Positions 10,409 to 24,147 of a DNA stretch of 64,000 nucleotides are shown here, piece by piece (position 1 is the first letter of the stretch; each line of letters starts with the position of its first letter). The notes under the pieces were generated by a model. It was not told the origin of the DNA, made no database searches, and was given only the letters and a program-made list of their open reading frames with translations. The DNA lies in contig QHYH01000093.1 of the NCBI GenBank assembly GCA_003223215.1, positions 1 through 64,000 of the forward strand, written 5' to 3'. The translations under genes and the position numbers were made by a program. Source of the DNA: Acidobacteriota bacterium. Its GTDB lineage: Bacteria > Acidobacteriota > Terriglobia > Acidiferrales > UBA7541.

Positions 10409-11170
10409 ATGCGGCTACTCCTGGTGGAAGATGATGCACGGATCGCGCGGTTTGTGGCTAAAGGGCTGCGCGAACAGACCTATGCCGTGGATGTCTCCGC
10501 TACGGGCGAAGATGCGCTGTATCAGGCCGCGGTGAACACCTACGACCTGGTGATCCTCGACGTGATGATTCCCGCCCCGGACGGTTTTGCGGTGTGCCGC
10601 GAGCTCCGCAAATCCGGGCAACGCATGCCCATCTTGATGCTGACTGCTCGCGATGCCGTGGAGGACCGCATCGCTGGCCTGGATCATGGGGCGGATGACT
10701 ATTTAACGAAGCCATTCGAGTTTCGCGAACTGCTGGCGCGCCTGCGGGCGTTGTTGCGGCGCTCGGGTGAACTACGGCCAGAGAAAATCACCATCGCCGA
10801 TCTTGTGCTCGATACCGCAGCACAAACCGCCAAGCGCGCCGGCCGCAATGTGACGCTGACGGCAAAGGAATATGCGCTGCTCGAGTATCTCGCGCACAAC
10901 GCCGGCCGCGTGGTGCGCCGCGCGGAAATCGCCGAGCATGTGTGGGACGAAACGTTTGATCCGTTTTCGAATTTAATCGAAGTGTACATCAACCGCGTGC
11001 GGCGCAAGATTGACGCGGATTCGGCGAAGCCGCTGCTGCACACGCGGCGCGGCGTAGGCTACGTTCTTGGCACGGAGGCCGACCTGCCGGACGCCGATTC
11101 GAACGAAGAGAGCGCCTCTTCGCGGTCGCGGATGAGAACACCTTCTTCTATCCGCAAGAACCATGCTTGA
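10409..11170 (+). CDS. OmpR/PhoB-family response regulator
   Basis: This is a 253-residue two-component response regulator. The receiver domain carries the acidic pair in LLVEDDAR, the phospho-acceptor Asp51 in VILDVMIP, the Thr of LTARD and the Lys of LTKPFEF. The C-terminal winged helix (about 125-225) shows LTAKEYALLEYL and INRVRRKID, typical of OmpR/PhoB DNA binding to tandem repeats about 11 bp apart. A roughly 25-residue Ser/Arg-rich tail follows the domain and is unusual. The stop overlaps the sensor-kinase start by 8 bp. The efflux operon begins just after the kinase, so the pair most likely controls it, and a tandem 11-bp repeat lies at the kinase stop codon. Confidence 0.93.
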   Translation: MRLLLVEDDARIARFVAKGLREQTYAVDVSATGEDALYQAAVNTYDLVILDVMIPAPDGFAVCRELRKSGQRMPILMLTARDAVEDRIAGLDHGADDYLTKPFEFRELLARLRALLRRSGELRPEKITIADLVLDTAAQTAKRAGRNVTLTAKEYALLEYLAHNAGRVVRRAEIAEHVWDETFDPFSNLIEVYINRVRRKIDADSAKPLLHTRRGVGYVLGTEADLPDADSNEESASSRSRMRTPSSIRKNHA

Positions 11171-12635
11171 TTCCATTCGCACGCGTCTGACGCTTTGGTA
11201 CACGGGCGTGCTAGCGCTCGTTCTCGTGGTACTGTTCGTCATCACTTATCTGGTTTTTCTGCGAAGTGTCCAGGGCCGAATGGACACCGACCTCAGCGAA
11301 CTTTCCAAAGCGTTCCTGGCCACCGTCCGGGCGGAACTGGAAGATCAAACGGCACCGGACCCCTTCACGGTTGCGGTGGAAGCGGCCATTGCGGAGCATC
11401 ATTTCCGTGATCATGTCTATGCCATTCTGGACGCCAACGGCAGGCTGATCGCGAGATCCACCGAAGATGTTCCGGCAAGCTCCAGGAAGCGCGCCGATTC
11501 TGCGACTCTTCTCGAGTCGGCCTCCTTCGAGCAATTTGTCAACAGCGCCGCGGCTGCGGAACAGTTCTTCGGAATGGTTGAAGGAGGAAGAAGTGGCTAT
11601 CGCGCGTTCGCCCGGCGGTTCACCGCACAGGGAAACCCATACACGCTCGTCATCCTGCGCTCTTTGCACCCCCGGTCGGAGATGCTCGAAGAAGTGACCG
11701 AGACGTTCGCTTGGGTGATTCCGATTGCGATTTTACTTGCGAGCGGCGGCGGTTATTTCCTGGCGCGCAAAAGCCTCGCGCCGGTCGTGGCTATGAGCAG
11801 CCAGGCGGGCCGCATCGGCGCCGCAAATCTGCACGACCGGCTGGCGGTGCAAAACGAAAAGGATGAGCTGGGGCACCTGGCGCGGTCTTTTAACGGTTTA
11901 CTGGACAGGCTGGCTGAATCGTTCGACCGCCAGCGCCGCTTCATGGCCGATGCCTCGCATGAACTGCGCACGCCAGTGGCGATTCTGCGCGGGGAATCGG
12001 AAGTCGCGCTGTCGCAGCAGGCCCGGTCCGCCGAGGAATACCGCGAATCTCTCGGTGTGCTGCACCATGAGGCGGAGCGGCTCACGCGCATCGTGGAAGA
12101 TCTTTTCACTCTGACTCGCGCCGACACCGGGCAATATCCGCTCCAGCCGCGCGATTTGTACTTGGATGAACTGATCGCGGAATGCGTGCATTCGGCGCGT
12201 ACCCTCGCGCAAGCCAAGAAGATTTCGCTCACCTTCGATGGAGCGCCGGAGTCCCCGATTCATGCCGATGAATCTCTGCTGCGCCGCATGCTCCTGAATC
12301 TCTTGGACAACGCCATCAAATACACGCCGTCCTTTGGACGAATCACCGTGGCTTGCCGACGCAGCGGTCAGGAATACGCAGTCAGCATCGCGGACACGGG
12401 GATCGGCATACCCGCCGAGCTTGGGCCACGCATTTTCGAGCGTTTTTTTCGCGCCGACAAGGCGCGCTCGCGTTCCGAAAGCGACGGGGGCGGCGCCGGG
12501 CTGGGTTTGGCCATTTCGCGCTGGATAGCGGAGGCGCATCAAGGCCGGCTGGAACTTACGTGTTCCGATTCCACGGGAAGCACCTTCACCGCCTATCTCC
12601 CCCTCGATTCCGGGTGTTCTCCATCTAGTGGTTAA
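11163..12635 (+). CDS. HAMP-domain sensor histidine kinase
   Basis: This is a 490-residue inner-membrane sensor kinase. A first membrane helix (about 14-36) and a second (about 180-198) flank a periplasmic sensor region of about 140 residues. HAMP follows, then the HisKA phosphorylation site ASHELRTPVAIL. The ATPase domain shows the N box NLLDNAIKYTP, DTGIGIP, and the G2 loop GAGLGLAISRW. The layout resembles CusS/heavy-metal or envelope-stress sensors of RND operons, but no metal-binding motif stands out in the sensor region, so the ligand is unknown. It is translationally coupled to the regulator upstream, and a TolC/adaptor/RND operon starts 79 bp downstream. Confidence 0.92.
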   Translation: MLDSIRTRLTLWYTGVLALVLVVLFVITYLVFLRSVQGRMDTDLSELSKAFLATVRAELEDQTAPDPFTVAVEAAIAEHHFRDHVYAILDANGRLIARSTEDVPASSRKRADSATLLESASFEQFVNSAAAAEQFFGMVEGGRSGYRAFARRFTAQGNPYTLVILRSLHPRSEMLEEVTETFAWVIPIAILLASGGGYFLARKSLAPVVAMSSQAGRIGAANLHDRLAVQNEKDELGHLARSFNGLLDRLAESFDRQRRFMADASHELRTPVAILRGESEVALSQQARSAEEYRESLGVLHHEAERLTRIVEDLFTLTRADTGQYPLQPRDLYLDELIAECVHSARTLAQAKKISLTFDGAPESPIHADESLLRRMLLNLLDNAIKYTPSFGRITVACRRSGQEYAVSIADTGIGIPAELGPRIFERFFRADKARSRSESDGGGAGLGLAISRWIAEAHQGRLELTCSDSTGSTFTAYLPLDSGCSPSSG

Positions 12636-12654
12636 TCCTGCGTTTATCCTGGAA
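12633..12654 (+). promoter_or_regulatory. Tandem 11-bp direct repeat, candidate response-regulator site
   Basis: Two adjacent 11-bp units (12633-12643 and 12644-12654) share the core ATCCTG in the same register. OmpR/PhoB-type regulators bind direct repeats with this spacing. The repeat starts on the kinase stop codon and lies 60-80 bp before the efflux operon, the expected place for an activator site. This is inference from arrangement, not a known consensus. Confidence 0.35.
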
Positions 12655-12714: not shown

Positions 12715-14100
12715 ATGAGATCACTTGGAATCTTTGCGGTGTCGTGGCCGATAGCCGCTGTGCTGTGCCTAGGCGGTCCGGAAATCTCTGCCGCGCAAGG
12801 TACCACGAATCCGGCAGCCACTATGCCTACGGCCGCCGGCAATCCGGCTCAGTCTTCTTCGCCCGGAGCGCCGCCGCTGAAGCTGACTCTGCAGGATGCG
12901 CTTGAGCGCGCGCGGAAAAACAGCGCGCCATTTCAAGCGGCGCTCACCGATTCTGCGCTCGCCCGGCAAGATCGATTTCAGGCGGGCGCCGCGCTGCTTC
13001 CCAGTGTCACCTACATCAATCAAGCGTGGTACACCCAAGCCAGGGAGAACGGTGTCGTTTTTATTGCCAACAACGCGGTGCACGAATACGTCAGCCAGGG
13101 AAACATACATGAGTCGCTGGACCTTGCGAGCGTGTCGAGCTTTCGTCGCGCCTCCGCGCTTGCGGCCGTCGCCAAGGCGCGAGCGGAAATCGCCGCGCGC
13201 GGCCTCGTGGTAACCGTAGTCCAGGATTATTACGCTGTTGCGGCGGCTCAGCAAAAACTGCTTTCCGCGCAAAAAACAGCGGACGAAGGCGATCGCTTCT
13301 TCAAGCTAACGCAAGACCTGGAGCATGGCGGCGAAGTGGCGCATTCCGACGTGATCAAGGCCGAATTGCAGGCGCAGGACCGCCGCCGGGCCTTGCAAGA
13401 AGCGCAATTGGCGCTGCTCAATACGCGGCTGGATCTGGCGGTGCTGATTTTTCCAGATTTCAACGAAAACTTTGAATTGACCGACGATCTGCACGCGCCG
13501 GCGCCGTTGCCGACGCTCGGCGAGGTGCAGCAGCAAGCCGCGCAGAATAATCCTGACGTTCGGGCGGCGCTTGAAACTGTCCGGGCCGCGGGATTTGACG
13601 TGACCAGCGCGCGCGCGGGTTATTTGCCCTCGCTGAGTTTTGACTACTGGTATGGCATCGATGCGCCGCAGTTTGCCGTGAATGGGACGAACGGGGTTTC
13701 CAATTTAGGCGCGTCCATCCTCGGCACGCTGAATATCCCCATCTGGAACTGGGGAGCGACGCAAAGCCGCGTCAAGCAAGCCGAACTGCGGCGTGCGCAG
13801 GCTCAGCGGGAGGTTTCTCTTGCGCAGCGCAGGCTGCTGGCGGAAATCAAGTCGCTTTACTCGGAAGCGGAAACCGCGATGAACGAACTTGGCGGCCTAG
13901 GCCGCTCCGCGGAGCTGGCGGAAGAGAGCCTGCGGCTGACCACGCTTCGCTACAAGGGCGGGGAAGCCACCGTGCTCGAAGTGGTGGATGCGCAGACCAC
14001 CTATGCGCAGTCAAACGCCGCTTATCAGGACGGTGCGGTGCGTTACCGCGCGGCTTTGGCGAATTTGCAAACTTTAACGGGAGTGCTGACAGCTCCATGA
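12715..14100 (+). CDS. TolC-family outer membrane efflux protein
   Basis: This is a 461-residue outer-membrane channel component of a tripartite efflux pump. A signal peptide is visible (hydrophobic to about residue 27, then an Ala/Gln cleavage region). It is followed by a Pro/Ala-rich linker and two OEP repeats made of long Ala/Gln/Glu coiled-coil helices (for example ALAAVAKARAEIAARG and RYKGGEATVLEVVDAQ). The tail YRAALANLQTLTG matches the end of the family. The stop overlaps the adaptor start (ATGA), so channel, adaptor and pump are made together. The upstream two-component system probably controls transcription. Confidence 0.9.
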   Translation: MRSLGIFAVSWPIAAVLCLGGPEISAAQGTTNPAATMPTAAGNPAQSSSPGAPPLKLTLQDALERARKNSAPFQAALTDSALARQDRFQAGAALLPSVTYINQAWYTQARENGVVFIANNAVHEYVSQGNIHESLDLASVSSFRRASALAAVAKARAEIAARGLVVTVVQDYYAVAAAQQKLLSAQKTADEGDRFFKLTQDLEHGGEVAHSDVIKAELQAQDRRRALQEAQLALLNTRLDLAVLIFPDFNENFELTDDLHAPAPLPTLGEVQQQAAQNNPDVRAALETVRAAGFDVTSARAGYLPSLSFDYWYGIDAPQFAVNGTNGVSNLGASILGTLNIPIWNWGATQSRVKQAELRRAQAQREVSLAQRRLLAEIKSLYSEAETAMNELGGLGRSAELAEESLRLTTLRYKGGEATVLEVVDAQTTYAQSNAAYQDGAVRYRAALANLQTLTGVLTAP

Positions 14101-15443
14101 AACACACCATACATCCCGACGTCGTTCGGCCCAGGCGACGGGCCTGGCTTCCCCTAACCATTGCTCCGCTGCTGGTCTCCGCCGGCTGTAGCAAACAGGA
14201 GGCGGACAAAGAGCCGGTGGTCAGCGTGCAGACCGCTCCGGCCCAGCGCGCAACCATTTCGCAGACCGTTTCGGCCGAAGCGGTGATCTACCCGCTCGAG
14301 CAAGCCACGATTTCGCCAAAAATTACTGCGCCAATTACCGAATTCAAGGTGCAGCGCGGGAGCCGCGTGAAAAAAGGGCAACTGTTGGTCATCCTGGAAA
14401 ACAAGGACCTCGCGGGCCAGGCTGAAGCGAGCCAAGGCACCTTCGAACAGGCTGATGCCAGCTACACGACGTCAGTGGATGCAACCATTCCGCAACAGCT
14501 GCAAAAAGCGCAGCTCGATGCAGACGCCGCAAAAGCAGCGTATGAGGCCCAGCTTCGGGTATACAACAGCCGTAAGGAACTGTTCGACCAGGGCGCGCTT
14601 CCCCAACGCGACCTGGATTCCGCCGCAGTTGCCCTAGCGCAGGCGCGCGGCGCAAATGAAGTGGCCCAAAAGCAGCTGGCGGACTTGCAGCGGCTGGGGA
14701 AGGAACAAGCAATAAAGTCGGCCCACGGCTCGCGCTTGTCAGCGGAAGGCACCATGCTTAGTGCCGAAGCGCAGCTCAGTTACTCCAGGATTCGAAGCCC
14801 CATTGATGGGGTCGTTACCGATCGGCCTCTCTACGCCGGCGATCTTGCGACTGCGAATCAGGCCATCCTTACGGTGATGAATCTGAGCCGGTTAATCGCC
14901 AAATCGCACATCCCGCAAACCCAGGCCGCAACGCTCAAAGTGGGGGACGCTGCGCAATTAAAGGCGCCGGGACTCGATGAACCTGTGAACGGCAAAGTGA
15001 CTCTCGTGAGTCCCGCTCTGGATCCTGGAAGCACCACGATTGAAGTCTGGGTCGAAGCCTCCAAGCCGAATCCTGCCTTGAAGCCCGGCATGACCGTGCA
15101 GCTTGCAATGACTTCGAAGACCGTCAAAGACGCCATCGTCGTGCCGGCCAACGCCGTCTTCAAGAATCCAGAAGGCCAGGCCGACTACGTGGTGATCGCC
15201 GGCGCGGACCAGAAGGCGCATTGGCAGACGGTCGAACTCGGTGTGCGAAATGCGGACAACGTGCAAGTCGTCACAGGCTTAAATGCCGGGGCTCCGGTTA
15301 TCACTTCCGGCGGATACGCGCTGCCGGACAACACCAAAATCAAAATCCAAGCACCCGAAGAGCAAGCCAAAGGGGACGAGAAAGCAGACAAAGCCGGCGA
15401 TTCCTCAAAATCTGGCGCCAAAGAGAAAGACGACAAGGACTAG
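14097..15443 (+). CDS. RND efflux periplasmic adaptor (HlyD/MFP family)
   Basis: This 448-residue membrane fusion protein links the inner-membrane RND pump to the TolC channel. After a basic N-terminus and hydrophobic stretch there is a possible lipoprotein signal ending SAGC, although the Ser at -3 is not ideal. The barrel-sandwich half motifs are ITEFKVQRGSRVKKGQLL and SYSRIRSPIDGVVTDR, with a long alpha-hairpin between them. The beta-barrel and membrane-proximal domains follow, and the tail is strongly Lys/Glu/Asp-rich. It overlaps the TolC gene by 4 bp and precedes the pump gene by 6 bp. Confidence 0.9.
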   Translation: MKHTIHPDVVRPRRRAWLPLTIAPLLVSAGCSKQEADKEPVVSVQTAPAQRATISQTVSAEAVIYPLEQATISPKITAPITEFKVQRGSRVKKGQLLVILENKDLAGQAEASQGTFEQADASYTTSVDATIPQQLQKAQLDADAAKAAYEAQLRVYNSRKELFDQGALPQRDLDSAAVALAQARGANEVAQKQLADLQRLGKEQAIKSAHGSRLSAEGTMLSAEAQLSYSRIRSPIDGVVTDRPLYAGDLATANQAILTVMNLSRLIAKSHIPQTQAATLKVGDAAQLKAPGLDEPVNGKVTLVSPALDPGSTTIEVWVEASKPNPALKPGMTVQLAMTSKTVKDAIVVPANAVFKNPEGQADYVVIAGADQKAHWQTVELGVRNADNVQVVTGLNAGAPVITSGGYALPDNTKIKIQAPEEQAKGDEKADKAGDSSKSGAKEKDDKD

Positions 15444-15449
15444 AACCGC

Positions 15450-18400
15450 ATGGAAACTCGGCCCGAATTCTCCAATGCCATCTCGGCGACAGCCAAGGCA
15501 GGCCTGCCCTGGTTTCACCGCCTGTCTAATCCTATTTTATTTTTAATCGTCAGTTTGGCGCTGGTTGGCGGTTATTTGGCATTCACCATTCCCGTCTCCG
15601 TTTTCCCCAGTACCGATTTTCCCCGCATCCTCATCGGCGTGGATAACGGCGTAATGCCGATCGACCAAATGCTCGTGACCATCACGCGTCCTTTGGAGGA
15701 GGCGGTCAACAGCGTTCCCGGACTTCAAAAAGTCACATCGATCACCAGTCGCGGCTCCGCCGAAGTCGACCTGTTTTTTGAGTGGAACAGCGACATGATC
15801 CTGACATTGCAGCGCGTCGACGCCGTCGTCGCCCGCCTGCAGGCGGAGCTTCCTCCGACGGCCAAAGTAGAAACACACCGTATGACGTTCGCTGTTTTTC
15901 CCATCATCGGTTACAGCCTGACTTCAGACACCGTGCCCCCGAACAAGTTGTGGGAAATAGCGACGTACGACCTGAAGCCGCGCATCAACCGGCTCGACGG
16001 TGTCGCCACCGTCATCATCCAGGGCGGGCGGGTACCCGAGTTTCAAGTGACTCCTGATCCCGCCCGGCTTCTCACCGCCGGCATCACCGTCCCCGATATT
16101 CTCGACGCGATTCGCCGCACCAACCTGGTGGACTCGCCGGGTTTGATCGAGCACGACCACCAACTCGTGCTCGGGCTCGTCAGTGGACAAGTGCGAACTC
16201 CGGAGCAGATCGCGCAAATTGTCGTCAAGAACTCACCTGCGGGCGTGCCGATTCGGCTGGGCGACATTTCCTCGATCGCTCCGTCGGTAGCGCCTACTTA
16301 CACGATGGTCACGGCCGACGGGAAACCCGCCGTGCTGCTCAATGTGAACCGCCAGCCCGAAAGCAATACTCTGGCGGTCGCCAACGAAGTGCACGCGCTG
16401 ATCCAAGAGCTTGCTCCCACTCTTCCTTCTGGCGTGCATCTTGAACCGTTCTACGACCAGTCGACCATCGTCCACGATTCCATCTCGAGCGTTCGGGACG
16501 CTGTGCTCCTGGGAATCGTGCTTTCTTCGATCATTCTGGTGCTGTTCCTGCGTGACTGGGGAACTTCGTTCGTGGCCGGCCTGGTGATTCCCGTTACGCT
16601 GCTGATCACTTTCATTGTTTTGAAAGCGACGAATCAAAGCTTCAACCTGATGACCCTGGGCGGTCTCGCCGCCGCAGTGGGCTTGGTCATCGACGACGCC
16701 ATTGTCGTCCTTGAAAATATTGTTTTGCACCGGGACGCCGGGCAAACCCGCCTTCAAGCCATCCAGGGCGCGCTGAAGGAATTGACCGTACCGCTGATCG
16801 GCTCGACGATTACCCCCATCGTCGTCTTTCTTCCCCTGATTTCCACTACCGGCGTGACCGGCACCTTCTTCCGCGCCTTGGCCGTCACCATGACCGTGTC
16901 GCTCCTCACCTCCTTGCTTCTGGCCTTGTCGTGGACTCCGACGCTCAGTCAGTATCTGGTTCGCCGGAAGGATAAGGAAACCGTTTCCGCCGCAGCACCT
17001 TCGGAAGGCCCCAACATGGCGGCGCTCCTTGCTGCGGAAGAAGCGCACCTTTCCGGCTTCTTCGGACGCATCGTGGGTTTCTATACCCGCGCCATGCAAG
17101 CCATCGTCAAGCGCCCCTGGATGTTGGCCGGGAGTTCGGTCGGGATCATCATTCTGTCCTACGTTTGTTACAGCCTGGTGGGCACCGATTTTCTCCCAGA
17201 AATGGATGAAGGAGGATTCATCCTCGATTACTACACTCCGCCGGGGAGCTCCCTCGCGGAATCCAACCGCATCCTCCTGCACATCGAGGATATTCTCCAC
17301 TCCACGCCGGAGGTCGAGAACACCTCGCGCCGAACCGGTATGCAACTAGGTCTTGCGGCCGTCACGGAAGCCAACAACGGCGATTTCACTGTGAAGCTGA
17401 AGAAGGACCGGCAGCGCGGCATTGACGACGTCATCGAGGATGTCCGGTCCGAAATCAAGCACACCGAGCCGGCTGCGGATATCGAATTTGTCCAATTGCT
17501 GCAGGACATGATTGGAGACTTGACGAGCCAGCCCGAGCCGATTGTCATCAGGCTTTTCTCTCAGGACGGCAAACTTCTGAACGACACCGCCCCGCGCGTT
17601 GCGGATGCGATTGGAAAGATTCAAATTGGGAAATCGCGTCCCGTTGTGGATGTTCTCGACGGGGTGGAGAACACGATCAGCGGTCCGGCCGTGACCTTCC
17701 AGGTGAATCCCACCGTCGCGGCCCGCGCCGGATTCACTCTGGAGGAAGTCGCTGTGGACGCCTCCGCCGTGCTCGAAGGTGAACCCGCGGCGACACCGGT
17801 CGTTCTGAATGACCGAGCCTACACCATTCGCGTGCGCTTTCCTGATGAGAACCGGTCTTCGCTCGATCGCATGACCAACACCTTGCTGACCAGTGCGAGT
17901 GGGCACACCGCCACGCTCGGTTCGCTCGCGACCGTCACCAGCGACCCCGGCGAAACGGAAATTCGACGCGAGAATTTGCAGCGCCTTGTCCAAGTCACGG
18001 CCCGCTTGGAAGGCGTGGACATGGGGACGGGGGTTGCTGCCGTACAGAAAGCCGTCCGCGACATGCATCTTCCCTCCTCCATCCGCATCCAGTACGGCGG
18101 GCTATATGAAGAGGATCGGAAATCCTCGCGCGATTTGATGATGGTTCTGCTATTGGCTCTCTTGCTTCTGTTTGCCGTGCTTCTGTTTGAGTTCCGGACC
18201 TTTTCCGCACCCACGGCGATCTTGACTTCGGCGTTGCTCTCCACGTTTGGCGGTTTTCTGGCGTTGCTGCTTACGAGTACGACGTTTAACGTCGCGTCAC
18301 GAATGGGCATGATCATGGTCATCGGCATCGTCGCCAAGAACGGCATTTTATTGCTCGACGCCGAACACCGTTTCCGCGACCTCGGATTTTCTCCCAAAGA

Positions 18401-18629
18401 AGCTATGATTCAAGCGGGCCGCCGGCGCCTGCGTCCCATCGCCATGACCGCGCTTGCGACGGTAGCCGGCATGCTGCCATTGGCGTTCGGGATAGGCGCC
18501 GGTTCCGAGATGCTGAAGCCCCTGGCGATTGTTGTGATTGGCGGCTTGCTCAGCTCAATGGTCCTTTCACTGGTCTTCACTCCGGCGATCCATTTCTATT
18601 TGCGCCCGCGAAAAACGGCAGCTGCATAA
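15450..18629 (+). CDS. RND-family efflux transporter permease (HAE1-like)
   Basis: This is a 1059-residue inner-membrane proton-driven pump with the RND layout: TM1 (ILFLIVSLALVGGYLAF), a large periplasmic loop, TM2-7, a second loop and TM8-12. The proton-relay segment reads GLVIDDAIVVLENI in TM4, as in the hydrophobe/amphiphile (HAE1) branch. It lacks the N-terminal signature of the heavy-metal CusA branch, so drug-, solvent- or lipid-like substrates are more likely than metal ions. It is the last gene of the operon. About 70 bp after the stop begins the Pho-like repeat region that belongs to the next unit. Confidence 0.92.
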   Translation: METRPEFSNAISATAKAGLPWFHRLSNPILFLIVSLALVGGYLAFTIPVSVFPSTDFPRILIGVDNGVMPIDQMLVTITRPLEEAVNSVPGLQKVTSITSRGSAEVDLFFEWNSDMILTLQRVDAVVARLQAELPPTAKVETHRMTFAVFPIIGYSLTSDTVPPNKLWEIATYDLKPRINRLDGVATVIIQGGRVPEFQVTPDPARLLTAGITVPDILDAIRRTNLVDSPGLIEHDHQLVLGLVSGQVRTPEQIAQIVVKNSPAGVPIRLGDISSIAPSVAPTYTMVTADGKPAVLLNVNRQPESNTLAVANEVHALIQELAPTLPSGVHLEPFYDQSTIVHDSISSVRDAVLLGIVLSSIILVLFLRDWGTSFVAGLVIPVTLLITFIVLKATNQSFNLMTLGGLAAAVGLVIDDAIVVLENIVLHRDAGQTRLQAIQGALKELTVPLIGSTITPIVVFLPLISTTGVTGTFFRALAVTMTVSLLTSLLLALSWTPTLSQYLVRRKDKETVSAAAPSEGPNMAALLAAEEAHLSGFFGRIVGFYTRAMQAIVKRPWMLAGSSVGIIILSYVCYSLVGTDFLPEMDEGGFILDYYTPPGSSLAESNRILLHIEDILHSTPEVENTSRRTGMQLGLAAVTEANNGDFTVKLKKDRQRGIDDVIEDVRSEIKHTEPAADIEFVQLLQDMIGDLTSQPEPIVIRLFSQDGKLLNDTAPRVADAIGKIQIGKSRPVVDVLDGVENTISGPAVTFQVNPTVAARAGFTLEEVAVDASAVLEGEPAATPVVLNDRAYTIRVRFPDENRSSLDRMTNTLLTSASGHTATLGSLATVTSDPGETEIRRENLQRLVQVTARLEGVDMGTGVAAVQKAVRDMHLPSSIRIQYGGLYEEDRKSSRDLMMVLLLALLLLFAVLLFEFRTFSAPTAILTSALLSTFGGFLALLLTSTTFNVASRMGMIMVIGIVAKNGILLLDAEHRFRDLGFSPKEAMIQAGRRRLRPIAMTALATVAGMLPLAFGIGAGSEMLKPLAIVVIGGLLSSMVLSLVFTPAIHFYLRPRKTAAA

Positions 18630-18702: not shown

Positions 18703-18753
18703 CTTTCATGTCTTTCTAATCCTCCTTTCATCTCGCTGTCATAAACCTGGCGT
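18703..18753 (+). promoter_or_regulatory. Pho-box-like array of five 7-bp half-sites with exact 11-bp period
   Basis: Five heptamers are spaced by exactly four bases: CTTTCAT (18703), TTCTAAT (18714), CTTTCAT (18725), CTGTCAT (18736) and CTGGCGT (18747). CTGTCAT-N4-CTG(T/G)... is the classical PhoB recognition pattern (direct 7-bp repeats every 11 bp). The array lies 137 bp upstream of the TonB receptor and its phosphatase neighbour, whose functions fit phosphate starvation. The periodicity is seen directly; PhoB binding is inference. A -10 element could not be placed confidently. Confidence 0.6.
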
Positions 18754-18889
18754 TAACTCCGCTCCACTGGGACCGACGGTGTGTGCTAGAGCGATGTGAA
18801 CCTGGGAATTTTCTAATGGCTCGCCAACTTCCCTGGACACTTCGCCACGGAGACTCATTGCGAATCCGGTTGCGATTGAAGGAGTTACT

Positions 18890-21787
18890 ATGCGAACTTT
18901 TGCCGGTTTCCTGCTCTCGCTGGTTGGTTTGTTTTTGCTTTACCCGCCTGCCCATGCGCAGACAGAACGCACTGCGGGACAGGAACGACCTGGAGCAATC
19001 ACTGGTAAGGTAACCGATTCAGGTGGTGCCGTCCTGCAAAGCGCAAAAGTCAAGGTGGAACCTGGCCCCATCGACGCCCTATCGGATGCTCAAGGGCAAT
19101 TTCTCATAAGCGGCCTCGCCCCCGGCACTTACACAGTGACCATCCGGTATGTCGGATTCAATACCTTCACCAAGAGCGTTATGGTTTCGGCAGCGCAAGT
19201 CGCGAATGTGAACGCACAACTTGGGGTCGCTTCCCAAAACCTGGAAGTGTTGGTCACGGCAGAGCGGGCCTCCGGCGAAGCGGAGGAGGTCAACCGCCAG
19301 CGCAACGCAGACAACGTCGTCCAAGTGCTTACCTCGGATGTTATCCGCAGCCTTCCCAACGCCAACATGGCTGACGCCCTCGGCAGACTGCCGAGCGTCA
19401 CCATCGAACGCGACGAAGGCGAGGGTAAGTACGTGCAGGTTCGCGGCACCGAACCGCGCCTTACCAACACCACCATTGACGGCATCAACGTTCCTTCACC
19501 GGAATCCGGTGTTCGGCAGATCAAATTCGACACCATTCCCGCCGACATCGTCGAGTCCGTCGAAATCAACAAGACCTTGCAGGCCAACATGGATGGCGAT
19601 GGCATCGGCGGCTCCATTAATCTGGTCACCAAGACTGCGGGAGAACGGTCCACCATGAACTTCAGCAGCATGGCTGGATACACTCCGATTCTCGGGGGGC
19701 GCGGCCTTACGGAAAACACCGGGACGCTCGGCCAGCGTTTCGGTGCGGACAAGCGCTTCGGCATCCTCTTCGGGGGCTCTTACGACTGGAATGGCCGCGG
19801 CATTGACGACACCGAACCAGTTCCAGACATTGCCACTTTCCCCAACGGCACCGAGGCCCGCTACTTCGAGGCTGCCGACATTCGCGAATACCGCTACTAC
19901 CGCAGCCGCGGGGGTGTCGCTGGGAGCGCGGATTACAAGATTGCTGACGGATCCAACATCTACGCCCGTCTCTTGTACTCGGACTTTCACAACTATGGCG
20001 ATCGCTGGGTCTATTCTCTGACCGACAACACAACCGGTATTCTTCTGCAAGGGGCAAACGGCTGTGCAACAGATCCCACAACCGGACTAACGACGCAACC
20101 CTGCACCGGCGTTCCCTCCTTCAACGACCAAATTCGCCGACCGGATTACGCCGTAGGAAGTCTTTTGCTCGGTGGCAAGCACGTGCTCTCTACGACGTGG
20201 TACGCCTGGGACGTTTCCGCATCGCGTTCCCGCCAGATCGGCCAGGTGGGCGATCGCACGGCTTCTTTTGCTTCCGGTTTGGCTTCCAGCTCCTGCCAAT
20301 ATGACTTAGCCAACACCACAAGTCTCTACTTGCCTCAGTGGACCCCGAGCTGTTTTACGGAAGCTTATCAACAACAAAGCGATTTCCCGCTGACTCGCAT
20401 GCAAGTGAACAACGGCCTGACCGCGCAACTGAACCTCCAGGGCACAGGAGCCATGGCCAAGCGCTATCACTTGGGTTCTCGCTTGGCCACCATCGAATTC
20501 GGAGGCAAGTTCCGCAACGGGCATAAATTCGCCAACACCTCGACAGACGACTATGACCCCTCCGGAACCGGTGCACCCCTTCAGCTGGGATCCTTCCCCA
20601 ATAGTTTCTCCAACAGCGACTACTATCAAGGGGCCTACAAATTGGGGCCCAATCCCAGCTTCAACGCCATCTACTCCGCCTTTCGGGCCGACTTAGCCGC
20701 GAATCCGTCCAATTACACACTGACCCACGACATCTCGAGCCAATTCAACTTGGTTGAACAAGTCGCTGCTGGCTACGTGATGCACACCATCGATTTCAAC
20801 AAGGTCCGCTTGGTCGCCGGCGTGCGTTTTGAAAACACCAATCTCAATACTGCCGCACGCATCTTCGATGGGAACGGCAACTTCCTTGGAATCAGTAATA
20901 ATAACGGCTCTTATTTGAAGACTTTGCCGAGTGCCTCTCTCCGATTCACCCTCGGCAAGGACACTTACCTGCGCACCGTCTATAGCCGGGGCCTCTCGCG
21001 TCCTGATCCTCAAGACATTGCTCAAGCCGTCTCGTACAATTTCATTGGCCCGAATGACCCGAGGAACTCCGTCTCCCTCGGCAACCCCAGCCTCCGCGCC
21101 GAATCGTCGTCCAACGTGGACGTCCTGATCGAACATTACATCAACCCTTTTGGAATGGTTACCGCCGGTTACTTCTACAAGAACTTGACCGAGCCGATCG
21201 TTTCGCGGACCGGAATCATTGCCAATTATCAACCCCCGGTTCCGGGGGCCCCGGCGGGCTCATACACGGTCACCCAGCCATTCAATGCGGGGAGCGCCTG
21301 GATCAATGGTTTTGAAGCAGCGTACCTCCAGCATTTATCCTTCATGCCTGGAGTGCTGAAGGGACTCGGCTTTTCCGCAAATTACGGCTACACGGCATCG
21401 CGGATCGCTTTCGGGCCCGATTTCGGTCGCGCCGATCATCCCCGGCTCCTGCGCAACGCCCCGAATAGCTGGAATATCAGTCCTACCTACGACCGTGGTC
21501 GAATCTCCGCTCGCGTTGGTTTGTCTTACAATCAGGCGAATATAGCTGGGTATGGGAACGGTCCCACCGGTCCGTTTGGCGACAACTATTTCTACTCGCA
21601 TCTGCAGTTCGATGCCCAGGGCAGCGTGAGACTGGCGAATGGCCTTCAGTTCATCATGTATGGCCTGAATATCAACAACGAGGTTTTCGGCTTCTACAAC
21701 GGCAGCCCGCAATACATGGTCCAGCGCGAATACTACCGGCCGACTATTGCCGCGGGCGTCCGCTGGTCGCCGCTGCACGAAAAATAG
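18890..21787 (+). CDS. TonB-dependent receptor with N-terminal carboxypeptidase-regulatory-like domain
   Basis: This is a 965-residue outer-membrane receptor. A signal peptide (to about residue 24, cleavage after AHA) is followed by a CarboxypepD_reg-like beta-sandwich (GAITGKVTDSGGAVLQSAKV ... GLAPGTYTVTIRYVGF). A plug domain follows (DVIRSLPNANMADALGRLPSV, VQVRGTEPRLTNTTIDG, GDGIGGSINLVT) and then a beta-barrel ending in an aromatic-rich strand. The plug text resembles the Xanthomonas-type TonB receptors of oligotrophs. The start is set by AAGGAG before the ATG at 18890. With a five-unit Pho-like array upstream and a secreted phosphatase gene 11 bp downstream, the likely cargo is a phosphorylated compound. 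The substrate is inferred, not shown. Confidence 0.9.
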   Translation: MRTFAGFLLSLVGLFLLYPPAHAQTERTAGQERPGAITGKVTDSGGAVLQSAKVKVEPGPIDALSDAQGQFLISGLAPGTYTVTIRYVGFNTFTKSVMVSAAQVANVNAQLGVASQNLEVLVTAERASGEAEEVNRQRNADNVVQVLTSDVIRSLPNANMADALGRLPSVTIERDEGEGKYVQVRGTEPRLTNTTIDGINVPSPESGVRQIKFDTIPADIVESVEINKTLQANMDGDGIGGSINLVTKTAGERSTMNFSSMAGYTPILGGRGLTENTGTLGQRFGADKRFGILFGGSYDWNGRGIDDTEPVPDIATFPNGTEARYFEAADIREYRYYRSRGGVAGSADYKIADGSNIYARLLYSDFHNYGDRWVYSLTDNTTGILLQGANGCATDPTTGLTTQPCTGVPSFNDQIRRPDYAVGSLLLGGKHVLSTTWYAWDVSASRSRQIGQVGDRTASFASGLASSSCQYDLANTTSLYLPQWTPSCFTEAYQQQSDFPLTRMQVNNGLTAQLNLQGTGAMAKRYHLGSRLATIEFGGKFRNGHKFANTSTDDYDPSGTGAPLQLGSFPNSFSNSDYYQGAYKLGPNPSFNAIYSAFRADLAANPSNYTLTHDISSQFNLVEQVAAGYVMHTIDFNKVRLVAGVRFENTNLNTAARIFDGNGNFLGISNNNGSYLKTLPSASLRFTLGKDTYLRTVYSRGLSRPDPQDIAQAVSYNFIGPNDPRNSVSLGNPSLRAESSSNVDVLIEHYINPFGMVTAGYFYKNLTEPIVSRTGIIANYQPPVPGAPAGSYTVTQPFNAGSAWINGFEAAYLQHLSFMPGVLKGLGFSANYGYTASRIAFGPDFGRADHPRLLRNAPNSWNISPTYDRGRISARVGLSYNQANIAGYGNGPTGPFGDNYFYSHLQFDAQGSVRLANGLQFIMYGLNINNEVFGFYNGSPQYMVQREYYRPTIAAGVRWSPLHEK

Positions 21788-21798
21788 TCGCGCGGCAA

Positions 21799-22731
21799 AT
21801 GAGGACTCACCGAACGATGCGCAAGACTTGGCATCAAAATGCCCTGATTTTCGTTGTGATCCTTGTTCCGGTTTCTTTTTTTGGAAATGCGGGATCGCGT
21901 CGCGATGGTTGGCTCGCGCCACAAAACGATCAGGTCACCGTATTGGTGGGAGCGGGCGACATCGCCGACTGCCGAAATCTCGCTGGCGCAGAAGCCACGG
22001 CCAAATTACTGGACCGGATTTCCGGAACGGTAATGGCCGTCGGCGACCTCGCGTATCCGGACGGCAGCACGGGAAATTTCGTCTGCTACGACAAGACCTG
22101 GGGCCGCGCGAGATTGCGCACGCGGCCTGCGCCGGGCAATCATGAGTTTCATTCCTCCCGCGCCACACCCTATTTTGATTATTTTGGTGTGTTTGCCGGC
22201 GATGAGAAGACGGGCTACTACAGCTACGATCTAGGCGCGTGGCACATCATTGTGTTGAACAGTGAGTGCAAAGACATCGGCGGTTGCGAAGCTGGCTCAC
22301 CCCAGGAGAGATGGCTTCGCGCGGACCTGGCCTCCCATCCCGTGGCCTGCACGCTGGCCTATTGGCACAAGCCGCTGTTTAGTTCCGGCAGCGCCCACGG
22401 CACCGATTTGACCATGAAGCCCCTGTGGGATGCGCTCTACCAAGCCAACGCCGACGTGGTGGTCAACGGCCACGACCACGACTACGAGCGCTTTGCCCCC
22501 CAAACCCCGGAAGGCGCCCCTGATTCGGCTCGTGGCATTCGTGAATTTGTTGTCGGCACCGGCGGGAAGGGCCTTCGCCCGTTTAGCGCACCGAAGCCCA
22601 ACAGCGAAGCGGGCAACGCCGAGGCTTTCGGAGTGCTGAAGCTCACGCTTCACGCTAACGGCTACGACTGGCAATTCATTCCAGAAGAAGGCAAGAGCTA
22701 CACCGACTCAGGCAGCGGCGCCTGCCACTAA
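21799..22731 (+). CDS. Secreted calcineurin-like metallophosphoesterase (purple-acid-phosphatase-like)
   Basis: This 310-residue exported phosphatase has the five metallophosphoesterase blocks in order: GAGDIADC, MAVGDLAYPDG, APGNHEF, YWHKPL and NGHDHDYER. They provide the Asp/His/Asn ligands of a two-metal centre. A hydrophobic segment near the N-terminus (NALIFVVILVPVSFF) is a signal peptide or anchor. A second ATG at 21817 is a possible alternative start. The gene lies 11 bp after the TonB receptor stop, probably in the same transcript. Together they suggest periplasmic or surface dephosphorylation of a phosphate ester coupled to uptake. Confidence 0.88.
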   Translation: MRTHRTMRKTWHQNALIFVVILVPVSFFGNAGSRRDGWLAPQNDQVTVLVGAGDIADCRNLAGAEATAKLLDRISGTVMAVGDLAYPDGSTGNFVCYDKTWGRARLRTRPAPGNHEFHSSRATPYFDYFGVFAGDEKTGYYSYDLGAWHIIVLNSECKDIGGCEAGSPQERWLRADLASHPVACTLAYWHKPLFSSGSAHGTDLTMKPLWDALYQANADVVVNGHDHDYERFAPQTPEGAPDSARGIREFVVGTGGKGLRPFSAPKPNSEAGNAEAFGVLKLTLHANGYDWQFIPEEGKSYTDSGSGACH

Positions 22732-22899
22732 TCTCGAAACCACTGTTTCTTCACTCCACCGCTTTGAGGAAGCTTGCCTGCGCGCAAGAGGCCTTATGGG
22801 TGCGCAGCACTGCCGGGCCCTTTAAATGCTCTTGCCAAAGAAACAGTCGCTCGTCACTCTTCTCGTCGCGCTTTGCCTTTTTGTGGCACAGTATTGTGG

Positions 22900-24147
22900 A
22901 TGGCAGCTTCTGAGAACTCCAGCGCCTCCGGGCGAATCGCTTTTACCTACCCAAGTTTCGTTTTCTATCAGTTGGCACGCGTGTTTATCGTCCTCTCGGG
23001 CGAAATGCAATCCGTCGCAGTCGGGTGGGAAATCTATGAAATTACTCGCCGGCCCCTCGCGCTTGGCTTGGTCGGCCTGGTGCAATTTCTGCCCGGCATT
23101 CTGCTTTTTCTCGTGGCCGGTCACGCGGCGGATCGTTACGACCGGCGCAAGCTGATTGTCCTGTGCTATTGTGGCTCCTCGGTTTGTTCGGCCGCGCTAC
23201 TGTTTCTCACGCTGGGCGGTTACGGTTCCACCTACCCCATCTATGCGGTCCTGTTCTTCGTGGGTGTCGCGCGTGCCTTCAGCGGACCGGCCACGCGCTC
23301 GCTGCTTCCTCAATTGGTTCCCGCGAAAGACTTTCAGAACGCCGTCGCCTGGGCTTCGGTTTTCTTCCAGGGCACAGTCATTCTGAGCCCTTCACTTGGA
23401 GGAATTATTTACGCTATCGCCCGCGGCCCCGCAGCGGTTTACGCACTTTCTCTTTTCGGGGCGATCGTGGCCGCCGTGTGCGCTGCAAAAATAAGAGTTC
23501 AATCTACCGGGCGCGCGCCAGAGCCGTTGAATTGGCAATCCACGCTGGCCGGCCTTCATTACATTTGGCGCGAGAAAATGATTCTCGGCTCCATCTCTTT
23601 GGATTTGTTCGCCGTTCTTCTGGGAGGCGCGGTCGCGCTGCTTCCCGTCTATGCCAAGGAAATTCTCATGACCGGTCCTTGGGGCCTCGGGCTCTTGCGC
23701 AGCGCCCCCGCTGTCGGCGCGGGCGTTATGGCCATGTTGCTCGCGCACAAGCCGCTGGGTCGCCAGGCAGGTTCCCGAATGCTGTGGTGCGTCGCAGGAT
23801 TCGGCTTGGCCACCGTCTTTTTCGGAATTTCCCGAAATCTCTTCGTCTCGCTGTGTGCGCTCTTTCTCGTAGGAGCCAGCGACATGGTCAGCGTCATGGT
23901 TCGCCAAGTGTTCATCCAGTTGGGCACGCCCGATAAAATGCGCGGCCGCGTCAACGCCGTGGATTCCGTTTTCGTCGGCGCTTCGAACGAGCTTGGCCAG
24001 TTCGAATCCGGTCTCACCGCTCACTGGTTTGGCACCGTACCGGCGGTGGTTCTGGGCGGGGTGGGCGCCATTCTGGTCACCGTTTTGTGGGCCTGGTGGT
24101 TTCCCGAATTACGAAAGTCGCAGGAGGTAGAACAATTCGCGGATTGA
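22900..24147 (+). CDS. MFS transporter (EntS/MFS_3-like exporter)
   Basis: This is a 415-residue inner-membrane major facilitator with about 12 hydrophobic helices. Loop 2-3 carries GHAADRYDRRKLIVL, the conserved MFS motif A region. The second half has PDKMRGRVNAVDSVF, a motif shared by the enterobactin exporter EntS and related MFS_3 proteins. The ATG at 22900 is chosen because family similarity starts there (FTYPSFVFYQLARVF); the frame extends 42 codons upstream without conserved text. No ribosome site is evident. The gene follows the phosphatase by 168 bp and is probably separate from that unit. Substrate is unknown. Confidence 0.85.
   Translation: MAASENSSASGRIAFTYPSFVFYQLARVFIVLSGEMQSVAVGWEIYEITRRPLALGLVGLVQFLPGILLFLVAGHAADRYDRRKLIVLCYCGSSVCSAALLFLTLGGYGSTYPIYAVLFFVGVARAFSGPATRSLLPQLVPAKDFQNAVAWASVFFQGTVILSPSLGGIIYAIARGPAAVYALSLFGAIVAAVCAAKIRVQSTGRAPEPLNWQSTLAGLHYIWREKMILGSISLDLFAVLLGGAVALLPVYAKEILMTGPWGLGLLRSAPAVGAGVMAMLLAHKPLGRQAGSRMLWCVAGFGLATVFFGISRNLFVSLCALFLVGASDMVSVMVRQVFIQLGTPDKMRGRVNAVDSVFVGASNELGQFESGLTAHWFGTVPAVVLGGVGAILVTVLWAWWFPELRKSQEVEQFAD

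Follow-up and report, generated by a model that had tools for sequence, protein, structure and literature searches.

A candidate PhoB-activated promoter ahead of a TonB receptor and phosphatase gene pair in the Acidobacteriota

Which regulator reads a tandem array of 7-bp repeats that lies ahead of a TonB-dependent receptor gene in an Acidobacteriota genome? The array is found in a stretch of 64,000 nucleotides (positions 1 to 64,000 of contig QHYH01000093.1, assembly GCA_003223215.1), which was analyzed as a whole and which we call the window. The initial annotation described the array as five Pho-box units under the control of PhoB. Sequence comparisons lead us to conclude that it is probably a PhoB-activated (Pho-box) promoter of the receptor-phosphatase gene pair that follows it, in a member of the Acidobacteriota.

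Four half-sites and a spacer

The array sits between an RND pump gene and the gene for the TonB-dependent receptor (Table 1). The period of 11 bp that had been claimed for its units is indeed exact: they start at 18703, 18714, 18725, 18736, and 18747 and read CTTTCATgtct, TTCTAATcctc, CTTTCATctcg, CTGTCATaaac, and CTGGCGTtaac. Four of the five units stand as half-sites, and the fifth does not. In the nine copies that we compared, this unit is off the half-site pattern (CTnACGT or similar). Because the window reads CTGTCAT-aaacctggcg-TTAACT, which matches the 10-bp spacing of the wider family and of E. coli, we view CTGGCGT as spacer ahead of a -10-like element. (TTAACT, at 18753-18758, weakly resembles TATAAT and the TAnnnT of the family.) A Pho box has at least two direct 7-bp repeats at an 11-bp period, and the array has four clear units.

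The pair CTKTCATNNNNCTKTCAT occurs without mismatch just once in the 8.8-Mb genome, at the array. If up to two mismatches are allowed, the pattern YTKTCAYN4YTKTCAY has 19 matches in the window as compared to 9.9 expected, a number that was reached by 1 of 100 shuffles.

Table 1. Positions of the array, the genes around it, and a second repeat in the window.
Feature	Position	Strand	Basis
Half-site 1, CTTTCAT	18703..18709	+	Sequence; in-register conservation across orthologues
Half-site 2, TTCTAAT (orthologue consensus TTCTCAT)	18714..18720	+	Sequence; orthologue alignment
Half-site 3, CTTTCAT	18725..18731	+	Sequence; orthologues; part of the best three-unit match to the pstS+phoB matrix
Half-site 4, CTGTCAT, promoter-proximal	18736..18742	+	Sequence; orthologues; pstS+phoB matrix
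10-bp spacer, holding most of the unit formerly called the fifth, CTGGCGT	18743..18752	+	Spacing in the family and in E. coli
-10-like element, TTAACT (TTTACT in most orthologues)	18753..18758	+	Inferred from position
RR1, CzcR/SilR/CopR-type response regulator	10409..11170	+	252 bits, below the cut-off of 279
HK1, CzcS/CopS-type sensor kinase	11163..12635	+	290.1 bits; cut-off 292.55
11-bp repeat GTTAATcctgcGTTTATcctg, between HK1 and the TolC-like gene	12631..12651	+	Kept in five relatives; weak Pho matrix score
TolC-like, membrane-fusion protein, and RND pump genes	12715..18629	+	Directly upstream of the array
TonB-dependent receptor (CarboxypepD_reg, plug, barrel)	18890..21787	+	TIGR01782, 393.9 bits, above the cut-off of 310
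Metallophosphoesterase, purple acid phosphatase fold (model)	21799..22731	+	Pfam PF00149; PDB sequence and model matches
MFS transporter (MFS_3/EntS-like), candidate member of the transcript	22774..24147	+	Counterpart in L086, L088, L090, and partly L091

Conservation of the array in relatives

Receptor homologues for comparison were taken from related genomes. The array can be aligned without gaps in seven promoters (the window and six orthologues), with 23 of 58 columns invariant, and conservation drops beyond its edges. A profile built from these seven promoters (R1) was run on 36 genomes of the genus, and 150 of the 1231 first-look candidates were scored. This identified further copies of the array in G012 (47.5 bits, plus a cut copy at 29.5 bits) and in G030 (42.5 bits). 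The copies stand at the end of the RND gene; in G012, the array precedes a receptor and the cut copy is on a second contig. At the G030 copy, the receptor is missing and just the tail of the enzyme remains. At L129 (G030) and at L130 (one of the two G012 contigs), a piece of the phosphatase gene comes immediately after the array or after its first portion, and the receptor is either deleted or misassembled.

In the window's own genome, R1 found one site at E ≤ 0.5; with 150 of 1231 candidates scored, the exact array was not seen as a genome-wide motif. A search of plasmids gave no match. The array is missing from a receptor paralogue in the same genome (at C66, 74-76% identical) and from homologues without an RND cluster alongside (L085 in the same genome, L092, and L093). 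Two array-less homologous receptors (L027 and L028) are preceded by CGTTTGCAA-type sequences, which look LacI-like by eye. This suggests that members of the receptor family are wired to different signals. At L091 (G023:C54, 3241-5982), a receptor with the array has one TAA stop inside the matched stretch.

Pho genes and Pho promoters of the clade

The genome has a pst operon (L023), a PhoB-PhoR locus (L134), and PhoU genes. Both proteins of the PhoB-PhoR locus score under the curated cut-offs: PhoB reaches 269-270 bits, below the TIGR02154 cut-off of 296.2, and the kinase reaches 397.8 bits, slightly below the PnpS cut-off of 400. The recognition helix of this PhoB, RSVDVYVRRLREK (RSVDVYVRRLR), resembles that of E. 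coli PhoB, RTVDVHIRRLRKA (RTVDVHIRRLR).

The pstS promoters of the genus and class have TTGTAACaatnCTGTAAC in common (24 of 31 have at least 13 of 17 matches), and the phoB promoters (9 loci) have four 11-bp units such as CTTTAACactcCATTCACatgaATGTAAAcaccGCGTTAT. The initial annotation had proposed to check whether such promoters carry the half-sites of the array, and held that their absence would refute the Pho reading. By letters, the array is literally absent from the genome's own pstS promoter (half-sites TTGTAAC and CCGTAAC) and from its phoB promoter (CTTTAAC, CGTTCAC, ATGTAAA, and GTGTTAC). Yet the same matrix covers all of these half-sites, and T is the dominant base at position 4, and A at position 6, in the array, pstS, and phoB sets alike. 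A profile of the whole pstS promoter (R2) found mainly pstS promoters, and at E ≤ 2 the window was not among its matches.

The half-site matrix was trained on the pstS (24) and phoB (9) promoters of the genus and class alone. We dropped 7 of the 31 pst loci, which agreed with the box at fewer than 13 of 17 positions, and we excluded unit 2 of the pst promoters as not conserved. The phoB units were given double weight, except in the phoB-only test. The best three-unit match in the window's array scores 14.9 bits (p = 4.6e-6 per position, with a background that included the arrays themselves). By this matrix, the half-sites match the pstS and phoB promoters of the clade, with non-identical letters. 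A four-unit matrix from phoB promoters alone, again with the arrays included in the background, gives p = 1e-6 to 4e-5 for 8 of 9 window-type arrays, and it places the pstS promoters, which were absent from its training, at a median p of 1.8e-5. That is, it ranks these 8 arrays about as high as pstS. The ninth, L129 of G030, does not fit (p = 1e-2).

Four close orthologous arrays (L151, L153, L154, and L156) score 5.9-8.6 bits with the matrix, which is under the threshold of 9.3, and L152 passes with 12.5 bits; among the 14 loci with at least 55% identity, 5 pass 9.3 and 1 passes 15.9. Because the nearest orthologous arrays score below the window, the matrix seems to suit the wider family better than the window's subgroup, whose Pho membership leans more on spacing, register, and its own conservation. 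We set our confidence in regulation by PhoB slightly lower for the same reason.

Pho-type arrays across the receptor family

In a first set of loci, 15 of 28 upstream regions of the receptor family pass the matrix, as compared to 4 of 115 other upstream regions. (Two of those four are receptor arrays with a different start call, and the other two are promoters of a two-component system, RR2-HK2.) With 60 column-permuted matrices, 0-7 of the 28 pass. L040 and L054, which have no true start, were excluded from the 28 receptor upstreams, as was L046 in one of two runs.

A larger set comprised the best 80 of 128 relatives, from named genomes. These are from acidobacterial groups and include isolates of Granulicella, Edaphobacter, Paracidobacterium, and Terriglobus. 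One locus (L211) has no upstream region and was excluded, which leaves 79. With receptor upstreams masked in the background, 45 of the 79 pass a threshold of 9.3, versus 10 of the 171 other upstream regions that these loci contain (p = 7e-23, Mann-Whitney test) and 0 of 20 unrelated receptors (p = 2e-8; 2 of these 20 stretches were shortened by contig ends). At a threshold of 15.9, the numbers are 22 receptor upstreams, 6 other upstreams, and 0 unrelated receptors. Column-permuted matrices gave a mean of 4.1 at this threshold, and 2 of 200 passed the true 22; part of the permuted matrices are near-equivalent to the true matrix. The remaining 34 of the 79 family members are under 9.3. The 80-locus set shares genomes, and in several cases contigs, with the first set, so neither test is independent of the other.

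Of the six control matches at 15.9, one is an RR2-HK2 promoter, two belong to a divergent gene pair that encodes a PF04185 phosphoesterase and a PF01663 phosphodiesterase, and the other three lie ahead of genes for an aldo/keto reductase (L174), a NUDIX protein (L205), and a Sel1-repeat protein (L207). These last three are either false matches or further members of the regulon. Across 30 PF04185 loci, 7 have a stretch above 9.3 bits within the first 1600 bases, in four cases at a similar place (L253, L254, L255, and L267); the three PF04185 loci of the window's own genome have no stretch above 9.3. Searches for PhoX (PF05787) in 36 genomes of the genus and for PF00245 in 10 genomes gave nothing above the cut-offs.

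Spacing between the last half-site and the -10 element

When 54 loci are lined up at the last half-site, T at +11, A at +12, and T at +16 appear. We scanned spacers of 0 to 37 in 45 divergent loci (under 55% identity and with a score of at least 8). TAnnnT lies at spacer 10 in 20 of the 45 and at spacer 21, which is one additional 11-bp step, in 8; the other spacings have 0-2 each. The pstS promoters of the clade have nAnACT in the -10 place, with A at position 12 in 23 of 24 and T at position 16 in 22 of 24. E. coli K-12 has CTGTCAC-N10-TATTTT at pstS, TTGTCAC-N10-TATAGT at phoA, and CTGTCAT-N10-CATAAT at phoB, where we take TATTTT, TATAGT, and CATAAT to be the -10 elements. The window's TTAACT and the TTTACT of its orthologues are without the A of TAnnnT, but have ACT in common with pstS. 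The 10-bp distance from the last half-site is found in the window as well, although the window's own -10 element is weak. A 15-base identity, GTCATAAATCTGACG, between L087 (10291-10305) and the E. coli phoB promoter (L147, 2075-2089) spans a half-site and the spacer, and is due to either convergence or coincidence. Structural models support a strict spacing between the Pho box and the core promoter, according to the available part of PMC10294691.

Control by PhoB, as had been proposed from the array's spacing and sequence, is well supported computationally by the matrix, by the -10 spacing, and by the PhoB-PhoR, PhoU, and pst genes in the genome.

The receptor and its partner phosphatases

The array had also been said to precede a TonB-dependent receptor and a metallophosphoesterase, and both the gene order and the families hold up. 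Just 11 bp separate the stop codon of the receptor from the metallophosphoesterase gene, whose product has an N-terminal signal peptide, as judged by eye. In sequence, the enzyme is weakly similar to purple acid phosphatases in the PDB (best E = 8e-8). Its structural model (pLDDT 71, pTM 0.74) matches purple acid phosphatases at Z of about 24: the top two matches have Z of about 24 at 2.7 Å over 248-271 residues, and wheat purple acid phytase is among the matches. On the basis of this model, the enzyme is predicted to have the purple acid phosphatase fold. By eye, it also has GDxxY, GNHE, and GHxH, which we take to be the purple acid phosphatase motifs.

A TonB transporter beside a phosphatase is found in relatives as well as in the window. 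The neighbors of the relatives' receptors include a cluster of 16 proteins of the window's type, a canonical purple acid phosphatase (L167), His_Phos_2 proteins (next to the receptor in L181, second downstream in L177), and a His_Phos_1 protein (L205); many receptor loci have neither kind of phosphatase as a neighbor. The presence of unrelated phosphatases beside one receptor family suggests a phosphorylated cargo or joint scavenging of phosphorus. The proposed role in phosphate starvation gains support from evidence that is independent of the array, including the predicted fold of the partner enzyme. A YncE-like beta-propeller protein is another frequent neighbor of the receptor (a cluster of 16 proteins, among the best 80 of 128 relatives).

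Candidate regulators other than PhoB

The window also encodes a two-component system of the CopR/CzcR type (RR1 and HK1), and the array could be the site of RR1. The receptor pair would then belong to the RND efflux cluster and would respond to a metal or envelope signal and not to phosphate. We consider this unlikely. It is true that the order RR1, HK1, TolC, MFP, RND, array, receptor, enzyme is kept in L086 and L088-L090 (in L087, it extends as far as the receptor), and that RR1, at 70% identity or more, is present in each of the 9 genomes with a strong array. However, 17 of the 26 genomes of the genus that have RR1 at this level are without a strong array, and L091 has the array without an RND cluster alongside, even though RR1 is encoded elsewhere in its genome (G023). 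In the class as a whole, arrays are found where no two-component system is adjacent. Furthermore, the recognition helix of RR1, SNLIEVYINRVRRK, differs from that of PhoB.

The DNA near RR1 can be read both ways. The RR1 promoter region has 11-bp direct repeats too, an arrangement that is also used by other OmpR-family regulators, and the 11-bp repeat in the RND promoter, the presumed target of RR1, has AATCnnnCGTTTA in common with the 3' end of the array, a partial likeness seen by eye. In contrast, the Pho matrix gives the repeats of RND promoters weak scores (p = 1e-4 to 9e-4) and detects nothing in RR1 promoters (p no better than 2e-3). The GTTAATcctgcGTTTATcctg repeat is a likely candidate for the operator through which RR1 would control the RND genes. 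We had initially favored RR1 as the regulator of the array from the pstS letters, TTGTAACaatnCTGTAAC; this was reversed by the phoB promoters and the matrix tests, and RR1 is kept as a rival.

Another OmpR-family regulator might bind the array instead, either the PhoB-like/CopR-like RR2 or a factor encoded elsewhere, with phosphate acting indirectly via the Pho boxes of the RR2 promoter. RR2-HK2 adjoins the receptor in L095, L096, L098, and L099, and among the best 80 of 128 relatives the receptor often has related regulators (11 proteins) and kinases (10 proteins) as neighbors. With the Pho matrix, the four RR2 promoters reach 14.6-22.7 bits. Nevertheless, we think that this scheme is quite improbable: a two-component system is beside a minority of the loci, arrays are about equally common with it (10 of 14) and without it (35 of 65), and the window has no adjacent RR2. 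Even among 30 loci where no two-component system was found over at least 4 kb on the upstream side and about 3.5 kb on the downstream side, 16 have an array. PhoB is the simplest common regulator. As a separate observation, the strong Pho-type boxes in RR2's own promoter in L095, L096, L098, and L099 suggest a relay in which PhoB acts on a CopR-like regulator.

Finally, a genome of this size contains many single units and mismatched pairs, but a chance arrangement, or a sequence that was kept for other reasons, is very hard to reconcile with the in-register conservation, the matrix test, and the locked spacing.

Proposed mechanism and its implications

Under regulation by PhoB, the array would work as follows. 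When phosphate is low, PhoR would phosphorylate PhoB, and dimers of PhoB would occupy the four 7-bp half-sites, which lie in tandem on the same side of the helix. With the promoter-proximal half-site exactly 10 bp from the -10 element, PhoB would replace the -35 element and recruit RNA polymerase. The products, a TonB-dependent outer-membrane receptor and an exported enzyme of the purple acid phosphatase type, would scavenge organic phosphorus together. We infer the binding of PhoB, the response to phosphate, the joint transcription, the export, and the cargo.

The partner enzymes have different folds: some are of the purple acid type (with a fold close to that of wheat purple acid phytase), and others are His_Phos_2 proteins, a superfamily that includes the histidine acid phytases. 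A bolder and rather doubtful idea is that the receptors form a dedicated family across Terriglobia that is part of the Pho regulon and imports intact organic phosphates, of which inositol phosphates (phytate) would be the likeliest, for interchangeable partner phosphatases.

Several of the window's nearest named relatives, among the best 80 of 128, are soil MAGs of gp2, which we take to be subgroup 2. Acidobacteriia of subgroup 2 are among the taxa enriched in low-phosphorus soil in both sample sets, as reported in the available part of PMC7593963. A half-site matrix together with the 10-bp spacing provides a working definition of Pho promoters for a phylum that is abundant in phosphorus-poor soil, and it could allow the Pho regulons of Acidobacteriota to be mapped. 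It would also place a receptor family without an assigned cargo in phosphorus scavenging.

Comparison with known systems

In the accessible portions of the literature, including PMC7593963, PMC10875860, and PMC9426549, we found no description of a Pho box of an Acidobacteriota gene; a Pho regulon is described in Gemmatimonadetes (PMC10875860, in the part available). The nearest published system that we found is in Flavobacterium, where, according to the available text of PMC8115612, depletion of inorganic phosphate induces TonB transporters, with "Pus" SusCD clusters beside phosphomonoesterases, phosphodiesterases, or phytase. The likeness lies in the outer-membrane TonB transporters beside phosphatases. 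The window differs from this system in its phylum, in that a scan of four neighboring proteins in the window found no member of the SusD family, and in that induction is predicted here. In Caulobacter, the receptor Cc0171 is found in stalk extracts at low phosphate, yet it is expressed in both rich and poor media (as given in the available part of PMC2996285), which implies that a phosphate-linked receptor is not always under Pho control.

The window's receptor scores above the cut-off for the bacterial TIGR01782 (TonB-Xanth-Caul) receptors and differs from them in carrying an N-terminal CarboxypepD_reg domain. Its partner is like the purple acid phosphatases and phytases (1xzw, 3zk4, and 6giz) in modeled fold and in motifs, but it is a short single-domain bacterial form with about 15-22% identity and a predicted activity. 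The array itself is like the pstS, phoA, and phoB promoters of E. coli K-12 in its 7-bp direct repeats, its 4-bp gaps, and the 10 bp to the -10 element. Unlike those promoters, it has looser half-site letters (CTTTCAT, TTCTCAT) in four units, and the gene that it would control encodes a TonB receptor.
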